The translations under genes were made by a program, and so were the position numbers. Of a DNA stretch of 36,324 nucleotides, positions 23,942 to 36,324 are shown in pieces; the first letter of the stretch is position 1; each line of letters opens with the position of its first letter. The notes beneath the pieces were generated by a model that saw nothing but the letters and a program-made list of their open reading frames with translations, did no database searches and had not been told where the DNA came from. This DNA is from Candidatus Aerophobota bacterium (GTDB taxonomy: Bacteria; Aerophobota; Aerophobia; Aerophobales; B3-G15). Location: NCBI GenBank assembly GCA_014859225.1, contig JACUUP010000002.1, forward strand, positions 1 to 36,324, read 5' to 3'.

Positions 23942-24985
23942 CTACCCAAGCTCACCTATTTTTTCTCCCCTGAGCCTGTCTCTTTTTTGCATGCTCATTT
24001 TAAGAAGATAGGGGAAATTATCCTCTTTTACTTGAGCAAAGATACTATCAGGGGCAAACAAGCGAAGCTCTCTTTTTTCCTCTTCACCCAGGCTATCTGG
24101 CCAGCTGGATATTATTTTTAAAACAGCTTCCTTTCCCCCTTGTTCAAATTTTTTTATCACCAGAAAAAGAGGGTAGGTATGGGAAGATATGCAGGCAAAT
24201 TCAGCTTCTCTCAGGGCATACACATTGCCATTGAAGGAGATAGAGACTCCACCCTTTTCTCTTACAAATCTTAGTGCCCTGGCATCGGTAATGCTATCTC
24301 CCGCATAGGCAGTATCACGGGGATTTGCCTTATTTTTTTTCATTGATTTTTTAACTACCCTTTCTTTTTCCTCCCCCCCCACAGGATTAACTTTATCCAT
24401 AAAGGCTTTAAAGTTCATTGAAGCAATTTCCTTGAAAAATATTTTATCAAGTTCCTGAATTACTTTCATCTCTTGAGAGGATATATCTTTTTTCCCTGCG
24501 GGGGGAAGGAGAGATAAGCTATTTATCCTTTCATAAAACTGGAGCAGCTTTTCTCTTTCATTATCTATTAAAGGGAAACTGTCAAGGTCAAGAAATGTGG
24601 AGAAAGTATCCCGGGGTGGGAAATTAACACTTTCGCAGAGAGCCTGTATATAGGGATTGTAGCTTGTGCTTATTATAAATACCTTCATTTTTGATGTTAG
24701 TTTTTGCAGCAGCTCCTTTGCTCCGGGGACAAACTTTAAGCTTTCTTTTGAATATTTTTTTATTTTCTCATTGCTAAGACTATGAGCTTTAAGGAAAGGG
24801 GCGATTAACTTGAGGGTTCCTCCAGCAAAATACCCTTTTTTCTTTATTACATCAGCAAGATAATCATCAAAGGCGCTGATCACTTTAAAGAAATGCTCCC
24901 CGCGGGGAAGAAAATACTGGCATATCTCAAAAGCATTGTCATTTAAGGTTATGGGACCTTCACAATCCATCCATAGAATTTTCAT
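23942..24985 (-). CDS. HAD-like protein related to energy-converting hydrogenase subunit EhaR
   Basis: This 347-residue protein opens with WMDCEGPITLNDNAFE, the hallmark of the EhaR-like HAD group first named in methanogen hydrogenase operons. Motif I is D7-C-E9, so the second acid is Glu rather than Asp. A STSY segment (motif II) and GDSITDARAL (motif IV) complete the HAD pattern, with a long insert between them. The natural substrate is unknown and no hydrogenase gene lies in the window, so the hydrogenase link may be historical. It is the last gene of a four-gene operon, 1 base after the formyltransferase gene. Confidence 0.75.
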   Translation of the reverse strand: MKILWMDCEGPITLNDNAFEICQYFLPRGEHFFKVISAFDDYLADVIKKKGYFAGGTLKLIAPFLKAHSLSNEKIKKYSKESLKFVPGAKELLQKLTSKMKVFIISTSYNPYIQALCESVNFPPRDTFSTFLDLDSFPLIDNEREKLLQFYERINSLSLLPPAGKKDISSQEMKVIQELDKIFFKEIASMNFKAFMDKVNPVGGEEKERVVKKSMKKNKANPRDTAYAGDSITDARALRFVREKGGVSISFNGNVYALREAEFACISSHTYPLFLVIKKFEQGGKEAVLKIISSWPDSLGEEEKRELRLFAPDSIFAQVKEDNFPYLLKMSMQKRDRLRGEKIGELG

Positions 24986-24986
24986 T

Positions 24987-25784
24987 TTATATCTCCACTA
25001 AAAGAGGTCCTTTTAAGTTTTGCAGATTTATTTTAGCCTCCCCCAGAAGATGTAAGGTAGATATAACAAGAGGTATCTCCCTTTTTTTCTGCTCCTCTCT
25101 TATGGCTTTGAAAAGAGGCTCTTTTTCCCCCTCTTCTTTTTTAATCTGTGTTAAAGTTTTATGTTTTAACTTTTCCTGCATCTTTTTCCACAGGGGGTCA
25201 AACATCTCTCCCCTCAGGGAAAATTTACAGTAGGTTATGGCAGGACCTGCATCAAGTTCGCAAGTGACCCGATGAATCATTATTCCCGACTCCCTTTCCT
25301 TTTTTTCTATGAGCTGCCATATAACTTCCTGCCAGGTTCCTTTGGGGCCACAAGGAAGGGCAGGATGCAGATTCAATATGGGGAATTTTTCACAAATCTT
25401 TTCGCCCAGAATAAGCATATACCCTGCAAGAAAAATTGCCTCTGCCGGATATTCCTGAACTTTTTTCACTATCTCCCTGTCGTACAGTGCCCTCCACCTG
25501 TTGATTAGCTCAAAGTTACCACTTTTTATATCTTTTAACCCTTTTTTTCTCAAGCCGGATTTGAATTTTGTGGAGGAAAAAGATACAAAAGCTATACCTA
25601 ACCTATTAACCAGGTCAATGAATTTGTCACTCTCTTTATTCTCCTCCCTTTCGCTGTTACTAAAAACATATGAGATGCTGGCATCCCCTATTTTTCCCTG
25701 TTTTGCGGCTTCATGGCTTTCTTGCAGGAGAAGACGTGCTTGCTTGTCCCTTCCTGTAGAAAACCATCCAATTTTAAAGGTCAT
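24987..25784 (-). CDS. PurN-like formyltransferase domain protein
   Basis: This 265-residue protein has a formyltransferase fold core. Residues that match the catalytic triad of PurN and methionyl-tRNA formyltransferase are N138 and H140 in LNLHPALP and D178 in ELDAGPAI. The GPKGTWQEVIWQL segment replaces the usual LLPxFxG substrate loop, so the acceptor may differ from glycinamide ribonucleotide. Such enzymes usually use 10-formyl-tetrahydrofolate. The ATG at 25784 lies within the end of the PfkB gene (11-base overlap), and the next gene follows after 1 base, so the operon is tightly coupled. The role is not known. Confidence 0.75.
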   Translation of the reverse strand: MTFKIGWFSTGRDKQARLLLQESHEAAKQGKIGDASISYVFSNSEREENKESDKFIDLVNRLGIAFVSFSSTKFKSGLRKKGLKDIKSGNFELINRWRALYDREIVKKVQEYPAEAIFLAGYMLILGEKICEKFPILNLHPALPCGPKGTWQEVIWQLIEKKERESGIMIHRVTCELDAGPAITYCKFSLRGEMFDPLWKKMQEKLKHKTLTQIKKEEGEKEPLFKAIREEQKKREIPLVISTLHLLGEAKINLQNLKGPLLVEI

Positions 25785-26748
25785 TTTTCACTTTTACCTT
25801 TCGCAGAAAATCCTCAAGAATCTTTTTTTCCGGATATCTTGACCTGCCAAATCCAGCTATACTTATACCGGCAGCATATGTTCCCAATCTTCCACATTCA
25901 GGATAAGGCAGGTTATTTAGGCATCCGGCGAGAAAGCCAGCTGCGTATACATCGCCTGCCCCTGTTGTATCAACACTTTTTACTTTCTGTGCAGGAATAA
26001 GTATCTCTTCTTCCCTGGAAATTACCCAGGACCCTTCACTGCCTAATTTACAGACAACTACTCTCGTATCTTCTCTTGAAATCCTAAAAGAGCCTTCTTT
26101 TGCGCTTTGCCCGGTAAGAAGTTCAATCTCCCTGCCCGTGGAAAACAAAATCCAGGTTTTCTTCAAAATGGGTAAAAGCTCATCCCATCCTCTGCTTGCA
26201 TGTGGCTCTCCCGGGTCAAAGCTTACCGGAACTTTTACATCTAAGATAATTTTTTTTTGAGCCTGGAAGGAGACATCTCCTATAAAAGAGGCGGTGTGAA
26301 GAATCTTTGCTTTGTTAATGTAATTTATGTCCACATCCTGGCTGAGGAGTTTATCATTTGTCCCGGGAAGGACAAAGACACTCCTTTCTCCTTCCCCATC
26401 AACAAGAATAAAACAGATGCCAGTTTTTCCCTCTCTTGCGATTTTAGTCGTATCAACCCCCTCTTTTCCCAAATCCTGCAGGAGAAAATCGCCCTCCTCA
26501 TCCTCTCCTACTCTGCCGGTAAATCCGCAGGAAAAACCCATTTTTGAGAGTGCATAAATAGTATTAGCAGCCGAGCCTCCCCCACTTTTTATTATAAACT
26601 CTGCCTTTTCTTTTAGAAGTTTACTTATAAAGGGAACTTCCTCAAGCTCTATTTTTCGCTCTGTTCCTTTTTTTATTTGTGGTAGCTCGTCAAATCTAAC
26701 TTTGTATAAAATATCAAGATTTAAAGCACCAAGTCCCACAACATCCAC
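25774..26748 (-). CDS. PfkB/ribokinase-family carbohydrate or nucleoside kinase
   Basis: This 324-residue kinase has both PfkB landmarks: an N-terminal SGGGSAANTIYALSKMG region with TGRVGEDEEG, and the C-terminal DTTGAGDVYAAGFLAG with the catalytic aspartate (GAGD). Family members phosphorylate ribose, adenosine, fructose, sugars or vitamins; the acceptor here is not predictable. The start is a GTG at 26748 with AGGAGGG 5 bases upstream. It lies 18 bases after the methyltransferase/ATP-grasp gene and overlaps the formyltransferase gene. Confidence 0.92.
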   Translation of the reverse strand: MDVVGLGALNLDILYKVRFDELPQIKKGTERKIELEEVPFISKLLKEKAEFIIKSGGGSAANTIYALSKMGFSCGFTGRVGEDEEGDFLLQDLGKEGVDTTKIAREGKTGICFILVDGEGERSVFVLPGTNDKLLSQDVDINYINKAKILHTASFIGDVSFQAQKKIILDVKVPVSFDPGEPHASRGWDELLPILKKTWILFSTGREIELLTGQSAKEGSFRISREDTRVVVCKLGSEGSWVISREEEILIPAQKVKSVDTTGAGDVYAAGFLAGCLNNLPYPECGRLGTYAAGISIAGFGRSRYPEKKILEDFLRKVKVKNDL

Positions 26749-26766
26749 ATAACCCTCCTTTTTATT

Positions 26767-28767
26767 TCAGAAAGAGCTTTTCTGAAACACACGCCGCACG
26801 GACAGTGAATTTTGAAGGTTTTTTTCGGAAAACTGGAAAATCTGGATTCCATTTCTCTGTTCCGCTGCCTGCAGGATAGCCTCCAGCATTTCTGGATAAG
26901 ATATCCCGGCAATTTTTGCCATCTTGGCAAGATGACCATCCCAGCACCATCCCGGATTGGGATTGACCTCCAGGAGCTTTGGGTTGCCCTGGGCATTAAG
27001 CCTCCAGTCAAAACGGGCATAATCCCTGCACTCAAGTCTTTCAAATAGTTTTAAACACCACTCAACAATAGATTTTTCTATCTCTTCCGGGAGATTAGCC
27101 GGGATTGATTTAATATTCCAGTAGGGAGAATCCGGCAGCCATTTAGCCTCATAGCCACAGATTTTGGGAAGTCCATCTGGAATCTCTGAGTAATCCTCCT
27201 CTATAATAGGTAGCACAGTATAGGATTCGGGAGGATTTCCTATTATTCCTACACTGAGGTCTTTACCTGCGAGAAACTCCTCCACAAGTATGGGTTTGTC
27301 GTAGCCAAATTTTTCTCTTATTTCCGAAATAGCGTTTAGAAGCTCCTCAAGATTATTTGCTACACTCCTCTGAGTTATCCCAAAACTGGAATCGCCAAAG
27401 TTTGGTTTTACAATTACAGGAAAACCAAAGGGTAGCTCAAAGGTCGTATCTTCAGGTTTAATGAAAAAAGCTTCTGGCACAGGAATTTGCATCTCTTTTG
27501 CAATACCACGAACAAGTGATTTGTCATAACAATTGGCAAGACACTGAGGTCTTGCACCGGTATAGGGAATATCCAGTACTTCCAGTAAGGCAGGCACATG
27601 GAGTTCTTTCTGGGGGTCATTCCTGTAGCCTTCATCGCACAGATTAAAAACTAAATCCATTTTTCCTGTAAATTTTCTCAAATCCTGAATAAGGGTATCG
27701 TGATTGTTAAAATAGCTAAACTGGTAATCTCTCAGTCCTCTTAAAGCTGCTTTTAGCTTATCAATCGTGTAAAAATCATCATCGTCGAAGATAGATAATG
27801 GTTTTAAGGGGTCGGTTTTATTTGGGTCACCCAGGATTACCACCACATTTTTTACTGCCTCTTTTATTTTTCTTTTAATAGGACTCCATTCCTTCCTTAT
27901 AAGAGCTGTTGCAATGATGCGTTGTTTCATCATACCGAGGTCTTGATTTCGCCTAGAATCCGTAGAAAATCTGCCATGAAAGGTGATATCACTGAAACCG
28001 GCTGTTTTCAAAAGTTTGGTTAAACATTCCGTGGTATAAAGTCTTTCCCCATAAAACTGGTCAGCGATTGCACCTTTTTCCACATGATTTATAATCTCTC
28101 GTGATATGAGGCGTTGTCCATCAAGGGAAAGGGAGCGTTCCCTGCAAGCAAAATGTTTTTTATCTATCCACTCCCATGAGCGAGGTTGAAAATTTTCTCT
28201 TAAGTATTCGCCATCTGCAACATCTATAATGATTCTACCCCATGGCTTCAAGACTCTAAAGATTTCCTTGAGCACTCTTAAATCATCCTGGATAGTTTCA
28301 AAATATCCAAAGCTGTTTCCTAAAATCATAACTACATCAAAGGCATCAGGTGTATAAGGGAGTTTTCTGGCATCTCCCTCTCTAAATTTAACATTTAGAC
28401 CCTCCTTTTTTGCGTATCCTTTAGCTTTATAGATTAAGTAATGGGAACGGTCCAGGCCTTCAATGTATCTAAATCCTCTCCTTGCAAGTTCAAGAGAGTG
28501 TCTCCCCTGACCGCAGGCAAGATCCAGAATCTTCTCTTCAGGTGACAATTTTAAAATTTCTGAGAATAAATCAACCTCTCTGCAGGTTATATCCTCATCA
28601 GCTACCACATCTGCATCAGTTTTTAGATAGAGGGAGTTGAAAATTCCTCGCCACCAATCCGGGCTTACATACTCTTCCAGGTCTAAAACAGGTCCCAATA
28701 TTTTCTTCTGGTATTTACCCGTTTTCCCATGTTCTGGAGGTTTGTCCGCAGATTCCTTTTCCTTCAT
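26767..28767 (-). CDS. SAM methyltransferase fused to D-Ala-D-Ala-ligase-like ATP-grasp domain
   Basis: This 666-residue protein has two halves. Residues about 40-290 form a class I SAM methyltransferase with motif I LDLACGQGRH (81-90), the acidic D/E pocket in IEGLDRSH and VVMILGNSFGYF. Residues about 305-640 form an ATP-grasp ligase like D-Ala-D-Ala ligase: KPNFGDSSFG (454-463) for ATP, and the metal-binding LLEVNPNPGW (E600, N602) near the end. It probably joins a carboxylate to an amine, and methylates a related molecule. The start ATG at 28767 has AGGAGC upstream; a longer in-frame start at 28842 overlaps the promoter region. The substrate is unknown. It is the first gene of the operon. 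Confidence 0.85.
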   Translation of the reverse strand: MKEKESADKPPEHGKTGKYQKKILGPVLDLEEYVSPDWWRGIFNSLYLKTDADVVADEDITCREVDLFSEILKLSPEEKILDLACGQGRHSLELARRGFRYIEGLDRSHYLIYKAKGYAKKEGLNVKFREGDARKLPYTPDAFDVVMILGNSFGYFETIQDDLRVLKEIFRVLKPWGRIIIDVADGEYLRENFQPRSWEWIDKKHFACRERSLSLDGQRLISREIINHVEKGAIADQFYGERLYTTECLTKLLKTAGFSDITFHGRFSTDSRRNQDLGMMKQRIIATALIRKEWSPIKRKIKEAVKNVVVILGDPNKTDPLKPLSIFDDDDFYTIDKLKAALRGLRDYQFSYFNNHDTLIQDLRKFTGKMDLVFNLCDEGYRNDPQKELHVPALLEVLDIPYTGARPQCLANCYDKSLVRGIAKEMQIPVPEAFFIKPEDTTFELPFGFPVIVKPNFGDSSFGITQRSVANNLEELLNAISEIREKFGYDKPILVEEFLAGKDLSVGIIGNPPESYTVLPIIEEDYSEIPDGLPKICGYEAKWLPDSPYWNIKSIPANLPEEIEKSIVEWCLKLFERLECRDYARFDWRLNAQGNPKLLEVNPNPGWCWDGHLAKMAKIAGISYPEMLEAILQAAEQRNGIQIFQFSEKNLQNSLSVRRVFQKSSF

Positions 28768-28798
28768 TTTTCTTGCTCCTTTATAAATTTTTGCGCAT

Positions 28799-28826
28799 AC
28801 TGTAGCATAATAAGGAGTGTCGTCAA
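28799..28826 (-). promoter_or_regulatory. Promoter for the methyltransferase/ATP-grasp operon
   Basis: On the minus strand, TTGACG (28826-28821) and TACAGT (28804-28799) are 16 bases apart, with TGC directly before the -10 box (extended -10 form). The leader to the ATG at 28767 is about 25 bases. Confidence 0.6.
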
Positions 28827-28835
28827 GCACATTTT

Positions 28836-28863
28836 TTGACATTTGCCCTTTTTTTGATAATAT
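28836..28863 (+). promoter_or_regulatory. Promoter for the phosphohexomutase operon
   Basis: TTGACA (28836-28841) is a perfect -35 box; TAATAT (28858-28863) follows after 16 bases. It lies back to back with the minus-strand promoter, with 9 bases between the two -35 boxes, so one regulator could affect both operons. Confidence 0.65.
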
Positions 28864-34324: not shown

Positions 34325-34960
34325 ATGAGAGCAGTTATTCTTATATCTGTTGTTGTTATTTTGTTTTTCTCTATTATTCTTCACGAGATTGCCCACGGTT
34401 TGATGGCTGAGAGACATGGGGACCCCACAGCAAGAATTATGGGGAGGATAACTCTCAATCCTCTTCCCCATATAGACCCTGTTGGAACAGTTCTTTTGCC
34501 GGCAATTATGATTATCATGAATCTTTTTGGAGGAGCCTTACCTATATTTGGATGGGCAAAGCCGGTCCCTATAAATCCGCGCAATTTGAATGACCCCAAA
34601 AAAGATATGATGTGGATAGCTCTTTCTGGACCCGGGACCAATTTTGCCATAGCTGTTTTTCTTGCGCTCGTTTACAGACTGTTTGCAATGCCTAACACAT
34701 TAGCCGGAGTGGTGCTTTTTTACGGAACTACTGTAAATCTTTTTCTTGCATTTTTTAATTTAATTCCCATTCCTCCCCTTGATGGCTCGCGTATTCTATC
34801 AGGGGTTCTTCCTGAGCATTTAAGCTATAAACTGGCTCAAATTGAACCTTTTGGATTCATCATCCTTTTACTTTTGCTGGTGAGCGGGGTTTTAAACTAC
34901 CTTTTTTTTGCCTTAATTAGATTAAGCGCTGTCTTAACTGGTGCTTATCTTCTTTTCTGA
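34325..34960 (+). CDS. M50 site-2-protease-like membrane protease
   Basis: This 211-residue protein is a small member of the M50 family. The zinc site HEIAHG (H20, E21, H24) lies in the first membrane helix and the third ligand is in the NLIPIPPLDGSRIL segment. Further helices lie at about 55-70, 95-120, 125-145 and 175-200. Small bacterial S2P-like proteins of this YwhC type cut within membranes, but their substrates are mostly unknown. It starts 4 bases after the previous gene. Its last 44 bases overlap the convergent purF end. Confidence 0.9.
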   Translation: MRAVILISVVVILFFSIILHEIAHGLMAERHGDPTARIMGRITLNPLPHIDPVGTVLLPAIMIIMNLFGGALPIFGWAKPVPINPRNLNDPKKDMMWIALSGPGTNFAIAVFLALVYRLFAMPNTLAGVVLFYGTTVNLFLAFFNLIPIPPLDGSRILSGVLPEHLSYKLAQIEPFGFIILLLLLVSGVLNYLFFALIRLSAVLTGAYLLF

Positions 34961-36324
34961 TGGGAAAGACAGGCTTCTCTCTTTTTTCAAAGATGTATTT
35001 GGTGCGGGGTTTGACTTTCAAGGGGTATTTTCCTGAAAAACAGGCTGTGCAATAATTTTCAGGTTTTTCCACACAGCTAAGCAATCCTTCCAAAGATAAA
35101 TAAGCCAGGGAGTTTGCTCCTACCATTTTCCTTATCTTTTCTACGCTGTGAGTTGAGGCTATTAACTCTCGTCTGACTGGGGTGTCAATGCCAAAAAAAC
35201 AGGGAAACTTTATAGGAGGGGAGCTAATTCTAAAGTGAATCTCTTTGGCTCCTGCCTCACGCAAAATTCCAATAATCTTTTTGCTGGTTGTTCCTCGTAC
35301 TATAGAATCATCTACAAGCACTATTTTTTTATCTTTCAGGACATCCCTTATGGGGTTTAATTTAATCTTTACCTCCATATCCCTTACAAATTGAAGAGGT
35401 TGTATAAATGTTCTTCCCACGTAGTGGTTTCGGGTAAGACCCATGCTGTAAGCTATCCTGCTTTGCTGAGCGTATCCCAGCGCAGCTGATATTCCTGAAT
35501 CAGGAACTGGAATTACAAGGTCTGCTTTAGCTGGATGTTCCCTGGCTAGAGTTTTGCCCATCTTTCCTCTCACCGTATGGGCAGTTTCTCCAAATACGAT
35601 GCTGTCCGGGCGGGCAAAGTATATATGTTCAAATATACACTGGGATAGTTTTTTAGGCTCTTTTATTGTGTAGGATTTTATCCCTTGCTGGTCAATAATA
35701 ACCATCTCCCCCGGTTTAATCTCTCTTATATATGTTGCTCCTACCAGGTCAAAGGCACAGGTCTCTGAAGCTAAAAGATAACTTGAACCACTACTTCCCA
35801 GCACAAGTGGTCTAAACCCAAGATGGTCTCTTGCACCGATTAAAACATCGTTAAAAAGCATAACCAAAGAGTAAGCACCTTTAACTTTTCTGAGAGCTTC
35901 CACTAAAGCTCTTTTTTTCCCGAGGGATTTGTTAAATTTAGTAAAAAGGTGGACAATCACCTCTGTATCCATTGTGGACTGAAAGATAGAACCTGAGAGC
36001 TCCAGTTTTTCTCTTATTTCTGTGGCGTTTATCAAGTTCCCATTATGAGAGATAGCTATTCCTTCTCCAAAAAAGCTTATAAGCAGAGGTTGGATATTGG
36101 ATGGAGCAGTAGAGCCTGTTGTAGAATATCGGTTATGGCCAATGGCAAATCTACCGGGCAGGTTTGCCAGCACCTCTTCACTGAAAATAGAATCAACCAG
36201 GCCAAGACCTCTATGTATTGAAGTGTTCAGCCCATCAGATGTAGCAATACCGGCACTTTCCTGACCTCTATGCTGGAGGGCGTAGAGGCCAAGGTAGGTT
36301 AGCTTTGCTGCCTGTGGATGGTTA
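34917..36324 (-). CDS. purF: Amidophosphoribosyltransferase, N-terminus beyond window
   Basis: PurF makes phosphoribosylamine from PRPP and glutamine, the first step of purine synthesis. The frame stays open to the right edge (reading LQHRGQESAGIA and HRGLGLVDSIF), so the start and the catalytic Cys at the N-terminus are outside the window. Visible parts are the Ntn glutaminase (GHNRYSTTG, SHNGNL) and the PRTase signature VLVDDSIVRGTTS. Cysteines in QCIFEHIYF, FPCFFGID and NYCTACF match the [4Fe-4S] ligands of Bacillus-type PurF. The 3' end overlaps the M50 protease gene by 44 bases. Confidence 0.96.
   Translation of the reverse strand, partial: NHPQAAKLTYLGLYALQHRGQESAGIATSDGLNTSIHRGLGLVDSIFSEEVLANLPGRFAIGHNRYSTTGSTAPSNIQPLLISFFGEGIAISHNGNLINATEIREKLELSGSIFQSTMDTEVIVHLFTKFNKSLGKKRALVEALRKVKGAYSLVMLFNDVLIGARDHLGFRPLVLGSSGSSYLLASETCAFDLVGATYIREIKPGEMVIIDQQGIKSYTIKEPKKLSQCIFEHIYFARPDSIVFGETAHTVRGKMGKTLAREHPAKADLVIPVPDSGISAALGYAQQSRIAYSMGLTRNHYVGRTFIQPLQFVRDMEVKIKLNPIRDVLKDKKIVLVDDSIVRGTTSKKIIGILREAGAKEIHFRISSPPIKFPCFFGIDTPVRRELIASTHSVEKIRKMVGANSLAYLSLEGLLSCVEKPENYCTACFSGKYPLKVKPRTKYIFEKREKPVFPIRKEDKHQLRQRLI

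Follow-up and report, generated by a model that had tools for sequence, protein, structure and literature searches.

A PurN-like formyltransferase with kinase and HAD partners forms a conserved gene set that probably serves purine biosynthesis in Candidatus Aerophobetes and several other phyla

We analyzed a 36,324-nucleotide stretch of DNA (contig JACUUP010000002.1, hereafter the window) from a metagenome-assembled genome (MAG) of Candidatus Aerophobetes, 1.8 Mb in size. It contains four minus-strand open reading frames (26767-28842, 25774-26748, 24987-25784, and 23942-24985), separated by 18, −11, and 1 bases. This layout agrees with a preliminary description of the locus, as do the gene families: Pfam matches assign a methyltransferase joined to Dala_Dala_lig_C (ATP-grasp), a PfkB kinase, a Formyl_trans_N protein, and, with weak scores, a HAD protein. 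The last three are abbreviated here as K (PfkB-family kinase, nucleoside-kinase-like; 25774-26748, 324 amino acids, GTG start), F (PurN-like formyltransferase and probable glycinamide ribonucleotide (GAR) transformylase; 24987-25784, 265 amino acids), and H (AF1437-type HAD, homologous to an Archaeoglobus protein; 23942-24985, 347 amino acids). The preliminary description also placed the four genes behind one promoter, which the sequence does not bear out, as promoter-like matches are no commoner than in shuffled sequence (13 sigma-70-like sites versus 10.9 ± 3.9).

F matches PF00551 and no other Pfam family. The AlphaFold2 model of F (pLDDT 95) is closest to the GAR transformylase PurN of Escherichia coli (Protein Data Bank 1cde; Z 21.3, root-mean-square deviation 2.3, 198 of 209 residues aligned), and the top 20 structural matches are all GAR transformylases. 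PurU (18.0), the hydrolase domain of 10-formyl-tetrahydrofolate (THF) dehydrogenase, and Fmt (17.7) follow, with ArnA (15.8) and PvdF (15.0) further down. The catalytic Asn/His/His/Asp residues of E. coli PurN (N106, H108, H137, and D144) correspond to N138, H140, H171, and D178 of F, all four unchanged across 27 diverse F sequences. F shares with PurN its fold and catalytic residues, and also, judging by mutual exclusion and operon context as described below, its place in the pathway. It differs from PurN in having 28% identity, a score under the family cut-off, a changed phosphate loop, and a longer C-terminal part with added conserved motifs of its own, and in traveling with K and H. Thus, F works like PurN but lies outside the PurN equivalog by score.

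The association of F with K and H extends well beyond the window. H is present in 16 of 17 Aerophobetes genomes, and wherever the contig is long enough, F, and nearly always K, stands beside it in the order K-F-H. An alignment-based scan for F confirmed 218 relatives, and the 80 loci kept from these include Latescibacterota, Thermodesulfobacteriota, Nitrospirae, Elusimicrobia, Poribacteria, Chloroflexota (Dehalococcoidia), Bacillota, and Ammonifex among the bacteria, and Thermoplasmata and Methanomassiliicoccaceae among the archaea. At many of these loci K and H adjoin F, in the order K-F-H or F-H-K. Where H does not adjoin F it is mostly encoded at another site, 37 of 45 F genomes having the gene. 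The set also varies: Dehalococcoides-like genomes have K beside F without H, some Dehalococcoidia have F alone, K stands alone in Thermodesulfobacteria, and in Methanomassiliicoccales F is accompanied by an H that has altered catalytic motifs, with no K found. In many Dehalococcoidia, whether or not H and K are present, the gene immediately upstream of F encodes a PHP-domain protein (L178:4980-5636, L143:3-656, L179:2300-2959); the idea that it substitutes for H is unsupported, as it occurs also where H is present. The K-F-H order is conserved in Aerophobetes and several other phyla far beyond chance. The preliminary description had suggested asking whether the order of its four families is conserved across phyla, and had held that genes neighboring only in this genome would speak against a common pathway. 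The kinase, formyltransferase, and AF1437-type HAD do belong together across phyla, whereas the first gene falls outside the conserved set and is their neighbor here only.

Gene neighborhoods connect the set to purine synthesis. Genome G032 carries purM-K-F-H-purH on one strand. One G028 contig carries purA-purD-purE-purB-purS-(masked)-purQ-purL-purF-K-F and breaks off within F, and another starts within H and continues into purH; the two contigs likely join. A single contig of G021 holds purD-purE, apparent pyrimidine genes, purM-(one gene)-K-F, and, further along, H-purB-purA, and two Thermodesulfobacteria have H near guaA. In several further Aerophobetes, the K-F-H set has purF, purM, or both in its vicinity. 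The window itself holds purF (34917-36173, minus strand; TIGR01134, 442.9 bits with a cut-off of 350), in the same orientation as K and about 8 kb upstream of it; its product, amidophosphoribosyltransferase, catalyzes the opening step of purine synthesis. A tblastn match to E. coli PurF extends to 36296, and the reading frame probably continues to the window end. As a side observation on purine genes, purL of Candidatus Subteraquimicrobium (L161:3515-7162) contains an intein with a LAGLIDADG domain.

The distribution of the established GAR transformylases, PurN and PurT, was then compared with that of F. Neither exceeds its cut-off in any of 43 F genomes, while PurD, which makes GAR, is present in 41 of them; the genome of the window has both PurD and PurF. 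PurN passes the cut-off in 11 of 14 control genomes. The Chloroflexota sample comprised 80 genomes, 24 with F, 55 without, and one (G119) in which the F gene is broken by internal stops (C9:99684-100158) and no PurN exceeds the cut-off. PurN was found over the cut-off in 0 of the 24 versus 41 of the 55 (Fisher p = 8.5e-11, on species that are not independent); F and PurN exclude each other in this phylum. H follows F here: 7 of the 24 F genomes have it, and all 55 others lack it. PurN also has full-length matches (107-131 bits) to frames of about 290 amino acids in some F genomes, and such frames are found in PurN genomes too, in addition to PurN itself; we read these as PurU.

K is a clear PfkB-family member (PF00294, 8e-47; 160.5 bits with a cut-off of 25.8) in which the GAGD motif (G263, A264, G265, and D266) is invariant. 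Its model is closest to the bacterial PfkB adenosine kinase 3ubo (Z 40.5, root-mean-square deviation 1.9, 309 residues aligned), followed by the related 4e3a (Z 40.1), with ribokinases from 36.7. K shares the fold and GAGD motif of 3ubo but only 25% identity, and reached no NCBIfam cut-off. H is homologous over its full length to AF1437 of Archaeoglobus fulgidus (1y8a; 2.5e-34 with a single sequence and 4.8e-64 with a profile, positions 2-355). Its motifs DxEGP and GDSITD are conserved, and AF1437 shares them as DxEGP and GDSxxD. The first motif is DxE, not DxD, a form also known from the enolase-phosphatase MtnC. Our literature search on AF1437 found no function described. AF1437 differs from H in its host, an organism reported to have neither PurN nor PurT (PMC3261824). 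The H proteins beside F in Methanomassiliicoccales have lost the catalytic Asp motifs (NCRGLI and VGGGIAD in L140:1489-2604; EAQGFL and IGGELID in L111:3717-4844), and their retention next to F suggests a structural or regulatory role there. H was not matched in plasmids, and viral contigs yielded one phage copy (IMGVR_UViG_3300003886_000013, L180:2027-3112; 310 bits, intact motifs). It lies a few kilobases from genes that we named by eye as phosphoribosyl pyrophosphate synthetase and nicotinamide phosphoribosyltransferase, a setting that fits a nucleotide-related activity.

The first gene of the operon, the methyltransferase-ATP-grasp fusion (26767-28842, minus strand), may instead start at an ATG at 28767, where the ribosome-binding site upstream is better (AAAGGAG). 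Its assignment reaches the level of a domain family only (PF07478), as its score for D-alanine–D-alanine ligase (TIGR01205, 130.2 bits) is under the cut-off of 245.65. Intact copies occur in two of the 17 Aerophobetes genomes, and the second (G010, 74% identity) is sited away from K-F-H among unrelated genes. G015 retains a decayed copy with several stops, up to 72% identical (L177, C2:45700-46264). In G011, from the same family as the window genome, K starts about 100 bases from a divergent phosphoglucosamine-mutase-like gene, leaving no space for the fusion gene. It adjoins K-F-H in no other Aerophobetes genome seen, no locus examined except the window has all four genes together, and viral contigs gave no match. 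The GC and GC3 (GC at third codon positions) of the gene are the same as those of its neighbors, so composition shows no sign of recent transfer. The first gene is a local insertion, a passenger that shares the operon only here, and its membership in a pathway with the others is ruled out by synteny and distribution.

Because PurN and PurT are absent where PurD is present, because the set lies in purine operons, and because the F model and catalytic residues resemble those of 1cde, we infer that F acts on GAR and is very probably the GAR transformylase of purine synthesis. Our favored explanation, to which we assign a probability of about three in four, is that K-F-H is a conserved purine-biosynthesis module in which F formylates GAR and K and H are frequent but dispensable partners. 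F would convert GAR to formylglycinamide ribonucleotide (FGAR) with 10-formyl-THF, the third purine step, replacing the PurN or PurT that these genomes lack. K may keep a purine-pathway riboside 5'-phosphorylated, and H, a HAD of the phosphatase type, could act in this pathway too, as a phosphatase, as a nucleotidase, or as a protein that partners F; the substrates of both are proposed here only tentatively. The methyltransferase-ATP-grasp gene, as a local insertion, would have no part in the module. Several observations weigh against this explanation. F scores 64.7 bits for the PurN equivalog TIGR00639, short of the cut-off of 150.1. In place of the GNGSN loop, which holds the GAR phosphate in PurN, F has STGRD, so its substrate could be something other than GAR. 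Some F genomes lack K and some lack H, the species in our counts are not independent, the MAGs are incomplete, and F genomes may encode some third type of canonical GAR transformylase.

A stricter scheme would have K phosphorylate GAR or a related riboside, F formylate the product, and H strip the extra phosphate to yield FGAR. The co-occurrence of kinase, formyltransferase, and HAD in a conserved order is consistent with such a three-step route, as are the altered phosphate loop of F and the comparable trio that closes the eha operon, whose formyltransferase is unrelated (EhaR being its HAD according to the preliminary description). We nevertheless regard it as quite unlikely, given the genomes with F and K but no H or with F alone, the Methanomassiliicoccales with a motif-altered H and no K found, and the presence of PurD, which makes GAR itself available. 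The dispensability of K and H would suit the idea that only F is a purine enzyme and that K and H, members of large and versatile families, are general nucleoside salvage or phosphatase genes kept beside it by chance. This is unlikely as well: in Chloroflexota H is limited to F genomes, in most F genomes where it is not adjacent it is found elsewhere, and it lies near purH, purB, and guaA even when apart from F.

Another conceivable role is synthesis of the carbon monoxide ligand of [NiFe]-hydrogenases in anaerobes, by analogy with HypX, which uses a formyl-THF-dependent domain. The similar trio in the eha hydrogenase operon, where EhaS was annotated as a formyltransferase and EhaT as a ribokinase (PMC3087415), would agree with this. 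However, 12 of 17 Aerophobetes genomes have HypD, versus 16 of 17 with H (with incomplete genomes as a caveat), G015 has the set without HypD at 93% completeness, and neither the purine operon context nor the PurN exclusion fits. We consider this role very improbable and set it aside on HypD co-occurrence. The preliminary description favored a route using all four genes, in which a small molecule is built by amide formation, methylation, phosphorylation, and formylation. The genes are indeed co-directional and close in the window, but nothing indicates amide-forming or methylating steps, and the first gene adjoins the others here only, its sole intact relative in the phylum lying elsewhere among unrelated neighbors; we give this route almost no credence. 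The same description found no matching pathway, yet the set probably belongs to the de novo purine pathway, where F would take the role of PurN. It had also named separate housekeeping roles for the genes as an argument against its proposal, and this is partly true, for F.

The window neighbors of the operon include a phosphoglucosamine mutase-like gene, ruvA, and ruvB, the others being read from sequence. A protein encoded at 104-1930 appears by eye to be a tungsten-containing aldehyde:ferredoxin oxidoreductase, and its gene has a GC content of 47% (window mean, 40%). Some neighbor families were read from sequence in this way, and on that basis there is no sign of an Eha hydrogenase beside K-F-H in the window.

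The eha genes also bear on how methanogens might formylate GAR. EhaR would be a HAD like H, as the preliminary description suggests. EhaS resembles formylmethanofuran:tetrahydromethanopterin formyltransferase (Ftr), a family unrelated to PurN, and F is not an Ftr, as PF00551 is its sole Pfam match. The Methanothermobacter eha operon ends with EhaS and EhaT, first annotated as methanopterin formyltransferase and ribokinase, respectively (PMC3087415). It is like K-F-H in encoding a formyltransferase and a ribokinase-like protein together (PMC3087415), but it encodes a hydrogenase, and none is signaled beside K-F-H in the window. In 2011, seven archaea were reported to have no GAR formyltransferase, namely two Archaeoglobi, four methanogens including Methanothermobacter, and Methanopyrus (PMC3261824); it was again reported missing in Archaeoglobales, Methanobacteriales, and anaerobic methanotrophic archaea (ANME) of group ANME-1, and still called unidentified in 2022 (PMC9012536). 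A second formyltransferase paralogue, Ftr2, occurs in ANME-1, ANME-2a and 2b, Archaeoglobales, Methanopyrus, and Methanothermobacter (PMC9012536). The overlap between these taxa suggests Ftr2/EhaS as the counterpart of F in methanopterin users. Against this, ANME-2a and 2b also have PurN (PMC9012536), and formyl-methanopterin is not believed to donate its formyl group (PMC3261824). Our literature search found no methanopterin-linked GAR formyltransferase described beyond these three papers (PMC3087415, PMC3261824, PMC9012536). By analogy, one module might employ non-homologous, carrier-specific formyltransferases: organisms that use folate would have PurN-like F, those that use methanopterin would have Ftr2/EhaS, and both would share H (AF1437/EhaR) and K (EhaT); we advance this tentatively, with more doubt than confidence.

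Together, these findings identify what is very probably a PurN-like GAR transformylase with two partner proteins. This divergent family would serve many anaerobic bacteria and some archaea, and through it a PfkB kinase and the hitherto unexplained AF1437 family of HAD proteins would be tied to purine synthesis. If the methanogen link is true, EhaR, EhaS, and EhaT would be purine enzymes misassigned as hydrogenase subunits, and formyl-methanopterin would be a formyl donor in biosynthesis. Ftr2/EhaS would then be the GAR formyltransferase that Archaeoglobi, Methanobacteriales, and Methanopyrus were reported to lack, and it offers a concrete candidate for the missing enzyme of the seven archaea (PMC3261824, PMC9012536).

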